Shown one piece after another: positions 51,340 to 56,048 of a stretch of 58,645 nucleotides of DNA. A program made the translations under genes and the position numbers. The notes beneath the pieces were generated by a model. It made no database searches. It was not told where the DNA came from and was given only the letters and a program-made list of their open reading frames with translations. The DNA is taken from NCBI GenBank assembly GCA_021736985.1, contig JAIPEW010000019.1, positions 1 to 58,645 of the forward strand. Direction: 5' to 3'. Positions within the stretch are counted from its first letter, which is position 1; each line of letters begins with the position of its first letter. The stretch is from Clostridiales bacterium (GTDB lineage: Bacteria; Bacillota; Desulfotomaculia; Desulfotomaculales; VENG01).

Positions 51340-53817
51340 TTACTTTACAACTATATTGACTAATTTTTTAGGTACAGCAATTAATTTAGCTATATTTTTT
51401 CCTTCTGTCAATTCTTTTATTTTAGGTAATTCAAGGGCTTTTTCTTTCAAGGCCTCCTGGCTAGTATCCACCGGCACCAGCATTTTTTCCCTGACTTTTC
51501 CGTTAATCTGTACTACTACAGTCACTTCTTCTTCTACAATAGCTGCCTGGTCGTAATCAGGCCAGGGCTGGCGGTGAATACTTTCATCGTAACCTATATA
51601 CTTCCACAGTTCTTCGGTAATATGCGGGGCAAAAGGCGCTAACAACAGCAGCACTGTTTCTACACCTTCTCTTAAAACAGCATGATCCCGGTCGCTCTCG
51701 GGAAGATCTTTAAACTGGTTAAGAGAATTTACCAGTTCCATTACTGCACTCACAGCAGTATTAAAGTTAAACCGCTGGGATAGGTCATCTTTTACTTTCT
51801 TCCTGGTCTGGTGATTAATACGGTGTATCTCCTTATTAACCCCGGTTAATTCTCCCTGTGGAGAAGACGGTGCATTTTCAATACTTTCTTCTACAGAAGT
51901 TACCAGGCGCCAGATTCGTTTTAAAAAGCGGTGACAACCCTCTACGGCCCTGTCACTCCATTCAAGATCACGCTCAGGCGGAGCGGCAAATAGGATAAAC
52001 ATCCTTGCAGTATCTGCACCATATCTATCTAATATATCTTCGGGACTGACCACGTTACCCTTGGATTTGCTCATTTTAGTACCGTCTTTTAAAACCATTC
52101 CCTGGGTAAGTAAATTCATAAAAGGCTCATCATTTTTCAAATATCCCATGTCATAAAAAACCTTGGTAAAAAAACGGCTGTATAAAAGGTGTAATATAGC
52201 GTGTTCTACACCACCGATATATTGATCCACGGGCAGCCAGTATGCAGCTTTATCTTGATCCCAGGCATTTTTTTCATCCCTGGGACTGGTATAACGATAA
52301 TAATACCAGGAAGAACAGACAAAAGTATCCATAGTATCAGTTTCCCTGCGGGCCCTGGCCCCACAAACCGGACAAGTGGTATATATAAAATCCTCGTTTG
52401 AATTTAAAGGATTTTTCCCTACCTGTTCAAGCTGCACATCCAGCGGCAAAACTACCGGCAGGTCTTCTTCCGGGACAGGGACAGTACCACAGTGATCGCA
52501 ATAAATTATGGGAATAGGAGCTCCCCAGTACCTCTGGCGGGATATAAGCCAATCCCGCAGGCGATAATTCACATGGCCTTTACCCAGGTTGTTATCTTCC
52601 AGGTATTTTATAACTTTGCTTATACCTTCCTGGTTGGGAACACCGTTGAAGGGCCCCGAGTTTACCATTACACCTTCCCCGGTATAAGCTTCTTTCAACT
52701 CGTAATCCCCTTCCTGGCTCTTAGGACGTATAACTTCCCGTATGGACAAGTTATACTTGGTTGCAAATTCAAAGTCCCTCTGGTCATGGGCAGGAACACC
52801 CATGACCGCACCGGTACCATATTCCATCAAAACATAATTGGCAACCAGCACGGGCACTTTTTCCCCGTTAACAGGGTTAGTACAATAAGCCCCGGTAACC
52901 AGCCCCTCTTTTTCTGCCTCGCCAGACGTGCGAGCCATTTCACTCAAATTTCTAATTTTCTCTACAAAAGCCCGGACTTTTTCAGCTTCGGGCTTGTCCT
53001 GGATTAATTTTCCCACTAACGGGTGCTCCGGAGCAAGCACCATATATGTAACACCATAAACAGTATCAGGCCTGGTAGTAAAAACAGTTATTTCGTCCCC
53101 GGTTTCAGCTTCAAACTTAATTTCTGATCCTTCACTGCGGCCTATCCAGTTTTCCTGCATCGTTTTTACCTTATCAGGCCAGCCCGTTAACTTATCCAGA
53201 TCATTCAGCAGGCGCTCAGCATAATCAGTGATCTTTAAAAACCACTGTTCAAGGTCACGCCTTTCTACAGGAGTATCGCAGCGTTCACAGCACCCTTCTT
53301 TAACCTGTTCATTAGCCAGTACCGTAGCACAGGACGGGCACCAATTTACTGCTGCCTTACCCTTATAAGCAAAACCATTTTTATAAAGCTGCAAAAAAAG
53401 CCACTGGCTCCATTTGTAGTAACCGGGATGACAGGTTGCTACTTCCCTGTTCCAGTCGTAGCTGAATCCCATCTGTTTAAGCTGGCTGCGCATGGCATTA
53501 ATATTATCCCATGTCCACTGGTATGGAGATTCGGCACCATGCTTCATGGCTGCATTCTCAGCCGGGAGTCCAAAAGCGTCCCATCCCATGGGATGAATCA
53601 CATGGTAACCCTGCATGGTATTAAAACGGGCAACCACATCTCCTATGGAATAATTGCGTAGGTGTCCCATGTGCAGCTTACCCGATGGATAAGGAAACAT
53701 CTCAAGGCAGTAATATTTAGGTTTATCACTATAATCAGGTATAGAATAAATATCTTCTGCTTCCCAGCGTTCCTGGCATTCTTTTTCGATTTCCTTGAAG
53801 TTGTAATATTCTTTCAC
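51340..53817 (-). CDS. leuS: Leucyl-tRNA synthetase
   Basis: 825 residues, full-length bacterial LeuRS. The class I HIGH motif appears as HMGH at 49-52 and KMSKS as [12 protein letters not shown] near 580. The zinc-type cysteines are in [20 protein letters not shown]. The editing domain includes [20 protein letters not shown]. It charges tRNA-Leu. Start GTG 53817 fits the family N-terminus, but its best SD is 35 bases away across a hairpin (see 53827-53859). It follows an acyl-CoA ligase gene, and a Leu-type T-box lies upstream of both. Confidence 0.96.
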
Positions 53818-53982: not shown

Positions 53983-55647
53983 TTAAGCTGTTTCGGTTTC
54001 ACCAGATTCTTCTATCCCAAGAATTTCTTTAGCCTGTTCTTTTAACTTGTATTTTTGTATTTTCCCATTAGCAGTAGTAGGATAGCTATTTACAAAATGT
54101 ATATACCTGGGAATTTTATAGCGTGCTATATTTCCTTCGCAATACTCTTTTATACCTTCAACAGTAAGCTCCGTGCCTTCCCTTAACTGAATAAAGGCCA
54201 TCACTTCTTCACCGTATTTTAAACTCGGAACACCTATAACCTGCACATCTTTTATACCCCGGTGCGTATATAAAAATTCTTCAATCTCCCGCGGGTAAAT
54301 ATTTTCACCGCCGCGGATTATCATATCTTTTAAACGCCCGGTAACTGTTATATAACCATAAACATCCATAATACCCAGGTCACCAGTATGCAGCCAACCG
54401 TCCTCGTCTACGGCAACAGCTGTTGCTTCAGGCATTTTATAGTACCCTTTCATAACATTATAGCCGCGAGCACAAATTTCTCCCTTTTGTCCACAGGAAA
54501 GTTCCTCTCGCGTTGAGGGATCGGAAATTTTCACCTCTATACCCGGGAGCGCCTTCCCCACAGTACTGACCCTTGCTTCCAGAGAATCCTGGGTACGCGT
54601 CATCGTTATTCCCGGTGCTGCCTCTGTCTGCCCGTAGGTTATAACAATCTCATTCATGCCCATTTTTTCAACTACTGCATTCATAACTTCCCTGGGACAC
54701 GGAGAACCAGCCATTATACCTGTTCTTAGTGAAGACATATCATAATAGTTGTTCTTTAATATTTCCAACTCAGTTATAAACATAGTAGGCACGCCGTGCA
54801 GGGCGGTGCACTTTTCTGCTTCCACGGTTTCCAGTACCCTGGTAGGATTAAAAGACTCCAGGGGAACCATGGTGCTTCCCCATGAAACGCAGCTCAAGGT
54901 ACCCAGCACACAGCCAAAGCAGTGGAAAAACGGTACGGGGATACACATACGATCTTCCGGGCCCAGGTTCATGCACTGGCCTATGCTTATACCATTTCCT
55001 ACAAGGTTTTTATGAGTTAATAACACTCCCTTGGGAAAACCCGTTGTACCAGATGTATACTGCATATTCGCCACATCATTTACATCCAGGCAAGCCTGCC
55101 TTTCTTTTAAGTCCTCATCAGGTACAGTCTCGCCCATTTTTAGAATATCCCGCCAGTTGTACATTCCCGGATGTTTTTCATCCCCCATGTAGACAACATT
55201 TTTTAACGACGGCAGTTTTTGAGAACATAAATTACCGGGCTCAGAACTGCTTAACTCCGAGCACACTTTATTAATCATTTCCAAAAAATCATTTTCCCTG
55301 GTCCCCGATGTCAACATCAGCATTACGGAATCAGAATGCTTTAACAGGTATTCGATCTCAAAAACCCGGTAATGCGTATTTGCAGTAACTAAGACAGCTC
55401 CCATTTTAGCTGCTGCAAACTGCATAACTGCCCATTCCGGAACATTTGTGGACCATACAACTACATGATCTCCCCGCTTTACTCCCAGGGCCATGAGACC
55501 TTTTGCCGCGGTATTGCACTCTTCTTTAAACTGCCAGTAGGTGTAGCGCAAATTCAAATCCTTGTAAACAAGCGCTTCATTTTCTGGATATTTTTCAGCA
55601 ATAACATCCAGCAGCCTACCTACAGTTAAATTAGCATAGTTTTTCAT
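53983..55647 (-). CDS. AMP-forming fatty-acyl-CoA synthetase / CoA ligase
   Basis: 554 residues. The AMP-binding signature is YTSGTTGFPKGVLLTHKNL near 197-215, then the YGQTEAAPGITMT motif near 350. The hinge and C-terminal domain carry GRLKDMIIRGGENIYPREIE, and the catalytic Lys lies in TANGKIQKYKLKE. It activates a carboxylic acid, probably medium- or long-chain, to its CoA ester. ATG follows GGGGAGG. It sits between the T-box leader and leuS, which is an unusual position for such a gene. Confidence 0.92.
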   Translation of the reverse strand: MKNYANLTVGRLLDVIAEKYPENEALVYKDLNLRYTYWQFKEECNTAAKGLMALGVKRGDHVVVWSTNVPEWAVMQFAAAKMGAVLVTANTHYRVFEIEYLLKHSDSVMLMLTSGTRENDFLEMINKVCSELSSSEPGNLCSQKLPSLKNVVYMGDEKHPGMYNWRDILKMGETVPDEDLKERQACLDVNDVANMQYTSGTTGFPKGVLLTHKNLVGNGISIGQCMNLGPEDRMCIPVPFFHCFGCVLGTLSCVSWGSTMVPLESFNPTRVLETVEAEKCTALHGVPTMFITELEILKNNYYDMSSLRTGIMAGSPCPREVMNAVVEKMGMNEIVITYGQTEAAPGITMTRTQDSLEARVSTVGKALPGIEVKISDPSTREELSCGQKGEICARGYNVMKGYYKMPEATAVAVDEDGWLHTGDLGIMDVYGYITVTGRLKDMIIRGGENIYPREIEEFLYTHRGIKDVQVIGVPSLKYGEEVMAFIQLREGTELTVEGIKEYCEGNIARYKIPRYIHFVNSYPTTANGKIQKYKLKEQAKEILGIEESGETETA

Positions 55648-55705: not shown

Positions 55706-55742
55706 TAAAAAGACCCCTCATCCCTGGAAGGGACGAGAGGTC
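55706..55742 (-). terminator. T-box-controlled terminator
   Basis: On the minus strand GACCTCTCGTCCCT and AGGGATGAGGGGTC form a 14-base stem with two G-T pairs and a 3-base loop, then TTTTT. It starts just after the T-box sequence, with which the antiterminator would compete. Confidence 0.93.
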
Positions 55743-55780
55743 TTTCTCGCGGTACCACCCTTGTTGGTAAAGCTTAATCC

Positions 55781-55856
55781 TGGTGGAGATGAGGGGGCTC
55801 GAACCCCTGGCTTCCTGAATGCCATTCAGGCGCTCTCCCAGCTGAGCTACATCCCC
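55781..55856 (-). tRNA. tRNA-Ala, anticodon GGC
   Basis: 76 bases with encoded CCA. Acceptor GGGGATG pairs with CATCTCC and includes the G3-U70 wobble that identifies tRNA-Ala. The D arm is GCTCAGCTGGGAGAGC. The anticodon stem CCTGA/TCAGG encloses loop ATGGCAT, anticodon GGC at 34-36. The T arm is AGGGGTTCGAGCCCCCT. All standard positions are filled, so it looks functional. It has no separate promoter or terminator: it lies inside the T-box leader transcript, so the only visible promoter is that of the riboswitch. Confidence 0.96.
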
Positions 55857-56048
55857 ATTTTATTCTTTACCCACTTGAAGCTATAACGGGCACCAACCGG
55901 CCCGGAATATTTATAGTTCCTCCGGGCAACTCCAGGACGAGTTCAACAACTTGGCTGACCGCCTCGCACCAGCCGGCGGTTCTCTGGCAGTTACGCTGTT
56001 TACTACTTCCCTTCACAGCTTTAAATGTTTTTCAATATCGTAACATGT

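Follow-up and report, generated by a model that had tools for sequence, protein, structure and literature searches.

Organisation of the leader locus

The window analysed here, a stretch of 58,645 nucleotides (contig JAIPEW010000019.1) from a Clostridiales bacterium of the class Desulfotomaculia, carries on its minus strand a leader in which a T-box riboswitch encloses a tRNA-Ala(GGC) gene. The genes rsfS, yqeK and nadD are located upstream of this leader, and a fatty-acid-CoA ligase family gene and leuS follow it. The locus comprises the following features, in the order of transcription:

56077-56049 (-), sigma-A-type promoter of the leader/tRNA transcript, TTGACA-17-TAAAAT, 11 of 12 matches
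56025-55726 (-), T-box riboswitch RF00230, cmscan score 126.7 bits, gathering score 93, E-value 9e-28
55939..55941 (-), specifier codon CUC (leucine) in stem I, from the alignment
55872..55876 (-), AAGUG, the 5' purine motif (RRRxG) of the T-box discriminator, from the sequence and common to the carriers in the alignment
55871-55865 (-), 5' strand of stem III, GGUAAAG, from cmscan, the fold and covariation
55856-55781 (-), tRNA-Ala(GGC), 76 nt including CCA, called by ARAGORN
55772-55766 (-), 3' strand of stem III, CUUUACC, from cmscan, the fold and covariation
55765-55764 (-), conserved AA directly 3' of stem III, from the sequence
55727..55761 (-), predicted antiterminator, from alignment to the 3' part of RF00230
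55757-55754 (-), T-box bulge UGGU in the antiterminator, from the RF00230 alignment
55747-55707 (-), predicted intrinsic terminator of 19 pairs and a U run, 3' of the tRNA, from the fold and terminator prediction
53983..55647 (-), fatty-acid-CoA ligase family gene, the first gene of the regulated unit in the window clade, best model NF009233 with 760 bits, under its cut-off of 832
51340..53817 (-), leuS, leucyl-tRNA synthetase, the second gene downstream, TIGR00396 with 1124.6 bits, cut-off 548.4

In the cmscan alignment the T-box covers positions 1-219 of the RF00230 model completely and the tRNA is placed as an insertion within the stem III loop; the tRNA itself is matched at 55856-55784 (-) with 64.2 bits (gathering score 29). 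The preliminary description of this DNA had recognised the T-box as complete and Leu-sensing, had placed a tRNA-Ala(GGC) gene between the sensing part and the switching part, and had proposed a covariance scan of the region; the RF00230 score, the ARAGORN call and the CUC specifier confirm this organisation, and both models score well above gathering. The encoded CCA, the G3-U70 pair and A73 are all present in the tRNA. In the minimum-energy fold of the whole leader (-129 kcal/mol, z -4.0), stem III closes around the cloverleaf and is followed by the 19-bp terminator.

The CUC specifier agrees with the leuS gene downstream, specifier and synthetase both being those of leucine, and the window genome also encodes tRNA-Leu(GAG), which reads CUC. 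The same codon was found in all 30 aligned leaders, as well as in diverse loci read one by one. A GCC triplet that follows CUC in many leaders was considered as a second, alanine specifier and rejected, since the window has GUC instead and GCC is also present in tRNA-free siblings.

In all 30 aligned leaders of the order, the best promoter 5' of stem I has a score of 11-12 of 12, and no internal promoter before the tRNA scoring more than 7 of 12 was found in these leaders, for which reason a separate tRNA transcript from an internal promoter was rejected. An extra-strong promoter as a sign of tRNA demand was also discarded, because the other T-box promoters of the window genome score 8-12. Elsewhere, at G000:C4:104276-104646 (L006, L013), RF00230 matches twice side by side, which may reflect two T-boxes in tandem or a partial duplication.

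The tRNA gene in the loop of stem III

The tRNA fills the loop of an intact stem III and does not replace the stem. The discriminator of the window reads AAGUG-GGUAAAG-[tRNA]-CUUUACC-AA, and RRRxG-stem III-AA is the discriminator motif of T-boxes (PMC7583486). Covariation was analysed in 56 distinct flank pairs from carriers of the arrangement, which were anchored on this motif and not on pairing. All seven pairs of stem III have changes on both sides, the double-change cells number 62 as compared with 23.7 in shuffles, and 80% of the cells pair, versus 34-50% with the strand slid. The earlier suggestion that the tRNA sits exactly where stem III normally does needs correction: the stem itself is present and covarying, with the tRNA in its loop.

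The tRNA is located between the sensor and the switch in the carriers examined, and the linkers around it vary in length among carriers, from 0 to 25 and from 0 to 17 nt. Exchange of the tRNA body at a fixed site is seen between loci L051 and L061, whose tRNAs are 76% identical and whose 3' flanks are 100% identical. The body is thus replaceable and the switch tolerates different ones, which together with the variable linkers speaks against the tRNA acting in switching in a sequence-specific way. The stem III loop may simply be the one loop where inserts are tolerated.

The nested tRNA-Ala has the appearance of a functional gene, with a cloverleaf, a GGC anticodon, G3-U70 and CCA. The G3-U70 pair is present in 115 of 115 nested tRNAs. 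Among the 30 leaders of the order found by DNA similarity, U(-1) occurs in 28, and 24 have A(-2)U(-1), the dinucleotide that suits RNase P of E. coli best (PMC9433436), as compared with 15 of all 50 tRNAs of the window genome. CCA is encoded in all 30 of these loci; its frequency among pattern matches is no evidence, as the search patterns demanded it.

In the window genome (100% complete, 50 tRNAs) the only tRNA-Ala(GGC) found is the one nested in the T-box, and tRNA-Ala(UGC) adjoins tRNA-Ile, as in rRNA operons. A GGC-tRNA pattern, which divergent copies may escape, gave a single credible match, located at the T-box, in 40 of 41 carrier genomes, the remaining one (G008) having a second GGC copy; the other matches of this pattern look like long variable arms or chance. 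As the sole GGC tRNA gene found in the window genome and in these 40 carriers, the tRNA must mature from the riboswitch transcript. A tRNA pseudogene or a structural insert as the main reading was rejected on account of the single-copy status and the conserved processing features.

These data also bear on the proposal that the unprocessed tRNA-Ala is no ordinary tRNA gene, but serves its own T-box as ligand or structural part, with its ACCA end paired to the UGGU bulge. The two sequences are indeed complementary, and the local concentration of such a ligand would be high. However, the CCA in the transcript is 3'-extended, with linkers of 0 to 17 nt, and such an end should mimic a charged tRNA and would not stabilise the antiterminator, judging from the steric mechanism (PMC7583486). 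Besides, the GGC anticodon does not match the CUC specifier, no other GGC gene was found in nearly all of these genomes, and the tRNA is retained where the T-box was lost (see below). Both variants of this idea had been put forward in the preliminary description; the pairing in cis finds no support and a purely structural role is disfavoured, so that we regard a cis-acting tRNA as very improbable.

Distribution of the arrangement and its variants in relatives

A search in related genomes, which had also been suggested, was performed with a pattern comprising any tRNA 3' half with CCA, 0-30 nt, and then the T-box core, in which alanine was not demanded. Of 398 genomes sampled evenly across the phylum Bacillota, 76 have the nested arrangement (1/398 with the reversed-pattern control), and slightly different forms of the pattern detected it in 43 of 113 genomes of the class Desulfotomaculia (reversed control 0/113) and in 17 of 151 Chloroflexota (control 0). 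These counts are lower bounds because a tRNA without CCA is also found inside a T-box (L300). Further carriers among the matches listed belong to Coprothermobacterota, Caldisericota and Armatimonadota, and include an Actinomycetota MAG, Ktedonobacteria, Sphaerobacter, Syntrophomonas wolfei, Thermosyntropha, Desulfofundulus and others. Although the pattern was not alanine-specific, the tRNA called by ARAGORN at the T-box core was always Ala(GGC). The nesting extends over a large part of the phylum and into several other phyla.

Conservation and the reversed-pattern controls led us to reject a chance overlap of the T-box and tRNA models. Matches outside these groups among those listed, mostly in Proteobacteria and actinomycetes, are without the T-box core and were assigned to chance. 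Pattern matches in viral contigs are also without the core motif, and a mobile-element or viral origin was dismissed.

In most carriers the start of LeuRS is 54-315 nt downstream of the leader. In the window clade the ligase gene intervenes and leuS begins at about +2000; about 30 loci have a related fatty-acid-CoA ligase gene after the leader. Some loci have additional peculiarities. In L107, L136 and L143 (Coprothermobacterota, Caldisericota) stem I is very short and the tRNA is still in stem III. In L104, L078 and L300 (Ktedonobacteria and a relative) a tRNA-Ala(CGC) gene is located upstream of the T-box containing tRNA-Ala(GGC). Group II intron domains (RF02001, RF01998) lie directly 3' of the T-box/tRNA leader in L226 (1695-1993), and in L155 (Symbiobacterium) just a tRNA-Ala 3' half precedes the T-box core, as a degraded or misassembled copy.

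Several relatives contain only parts of the arrangement. Six relatives in the order of the window share the leader, but their stem III is of the ordinary kind with a short loop and lacks the tRNA. In two others, G007 (L285) and G018 (L288), and in one member of the Chloroflexota, G511 (L301), the T-box is absent and tRNA-Ala(GGC) is located directly upstream of leuS. The promoter abuts the tRNA in G007 and G018, and an rsfS-like gene was read upstream in the sequence of G007, as in the window. The riboswitch thus appears to be dispensable, while the tRNA does not. At L221 (G465:C47) stems I and II have apparently been lost, and stem III, tRNA-Ala and the antiterminator/terminator are kept; it is a possible intermediate of T-box loss. 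Finally, in L302 and L307 (Chloroflexota) tandem tRNA-Ala(CGC) and tRNA-Ala(GGC) genes are situated just 5' of a leuS-linked T-box, not inside it, and the stem III region of these loci contains short GTTTGAACGTT-like repeats. Empty loop, nested tRNA, lost stem I and lost T-box form a natural series, making the evolution of the element directly comparable between species.

Alternatively, the nesting may be neutral hitchhiking: the tRNA of an ancient tRNA-Ala(GGC)-leuS gene pair either became enclosed by the T-box or inserted itself into it, and the layout, without any regulatory meaning, is frozen because the tRNA is single-copy. The adjacency of tRNA and leuS without a T-box in G007, G018 and G511, the tRNA-Ala genes that immediately precede the T-box in L302 and L307, and the occurrence of the leader with and without the tRNA within one order all speak for this history. 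It does not alone explain why the tRNA occupies the loop of stem III with the pairing kept, though this is perhaps the only tolerant site. We consider it a serious candidate, with a probability somewhat short of even; it chiefly concerns history and in part coincides with the explanation that we prefer, a transcript with two functions. In a LeuRS tree meant to distinguish vertical descent from transfer, in which sampling is biased towards carriers and from which no ancestral state is claimed, the carrier label needs 12 changes and shows clustering.

Proposed function of the leader and comparison with known systems

The leader is probably a bifunctional primary transcript, being both riboswitch and pre-tRNA, in which the switch would decide during transcription and processing would then free the tRNA; the processing and its timing are deduced from the layout. 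Stems I and II would be transcribed first, followed by the 5' strand of stem III, the tRNA, the 3' strand of stem III and the antiterminator/terminator. Binding of uncharged tRNA-Leu(GAG) to stem I would decide the outcome while the RNA is being made, as in any T-box, and the decision would be a normal one because the nested tRNA is expected to fold as an independent domain atop stem III. The decision point would be reached about 75 nt past the 3' end of the tRNA. RNase P at the 5' end and 3' nucleases could release mature tRNA-Ala from terminated and read-through RNA alike.

Since the tRNA precedes the terminator, it is present in both terminated and read-through transcripts and should be made either way. 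The preliminary description had concluded that the supply of tRNA-Ala becomes tied to a Leu-sensing leader, which this position does not support: leuS would be regulated by leucine, and tRNA-Ala output would be largely independent of leucine status, assuming equal processing of the two kinds of RNA. It had further been argued that excision of the tRNA splits the riboswitch. The halves would indeed be separated covalently, but the kept stem III helix could hold them together. A cut after the decision would be harmless to regulation, and an earlier cut by RNase P may be bridged by stem III acting as a splint. The persistence of the arrangement may be explained by the nested gene being the sole gene for a GGC-anticodon tRNA-Ala. 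The 3' trailer with its terminator may slow 3' maturation, which counts against the bifunctional transcript.

The location of the tRNA between sensor and switch in the carriers examined, the deep conservation of this layout across phyla and the near-optimal RNase P leader dinucleotides could also indicate a coupled device. Here cleavage by RNase P or at the 3' end would serve as a timer or as an irreversible off-step cutting the sensor from the switch, or would provide a stabilised 5' end on the read-through leuS mRNA, and the capacity for tRNA-Ala processing would feed into leuS expression. However, the tRNA body is replaceable, the linker lengths (0-25 and 0-17 nt) are not conserved, siblings with otherwise ordinary T-boxes have an empty loop, stem III could keep the halves paired after the cut, and the position may simply be the one insert-tolerant loop; such a device is unlikely. 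There is likewise only a small chance that the leader is a processing-coupled dual RNA kept since early in several phyla, in which tRNA excision is linked to the riboswitch through a timer, an irreversible cut or stabilisation of the leuS mRNA 5' end, and tRNA-Ala(GGC) maturation and leucine sensing influence each other.

The leader shares with the transcriptional long-stem-I T-boxes (RF00230) upstream of leuS the stem I with CUC, the IIA/B region, RRRxG-stem III-AA, the UGGU bulge, the predicted antiterminator/terminator and the leuS gene downstream. Unlike in these, the stem III loop holds an entire tRNA gene of another amino-acid specificity. tRNA genes occur in mRNA or rRNA operons, as exemplified by tRNA-Ile/Ala in rRNA spacers. 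There, too, the tRNA is cut from a longer transcript with another job, whereas here it interrupts a structured regulatory RNA, inside a hairpin needed for regulation. The nested tRNA resembles known precursors cleaved by bacterial RNase P (PMC9433436) in its U(-1), A(-2)U(-1) and encoded CCA; its leader and trailer differ in that they pair with each other as stem III, a few nucleotides away from the tRNA ends, and in that each half belongs to a riboswitch.

No mention of a tRNA inside a T-box was found in the T-box papers PMC7583486, PMC7778990 and PMC2494555, and no description of one in the open-access papers searched. An earlier mention in subscription T-box surveys is possible. A single-copy tRNA in a riboswitch means that one RNA must stay intact until the decision, yet be cut to free a tRNA essential for translation. 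It allows one to examine in a natural system whether T-box decisions are complete by the time the RNA is processed, what insert size is tolerated in stem III, and how RNase P acts on nascent structured RNA.

The arrangement also has a consequence for annotation, because T-box surveys would register a large stem III insert and tRNA surveys an isolated tRNA gene, the nesting being visible in neither. Among the distant leaders scanned, 13 of 19 fall below the RF00230 gathering score and were recognised only by the core motif, the specifier and the tRNA.
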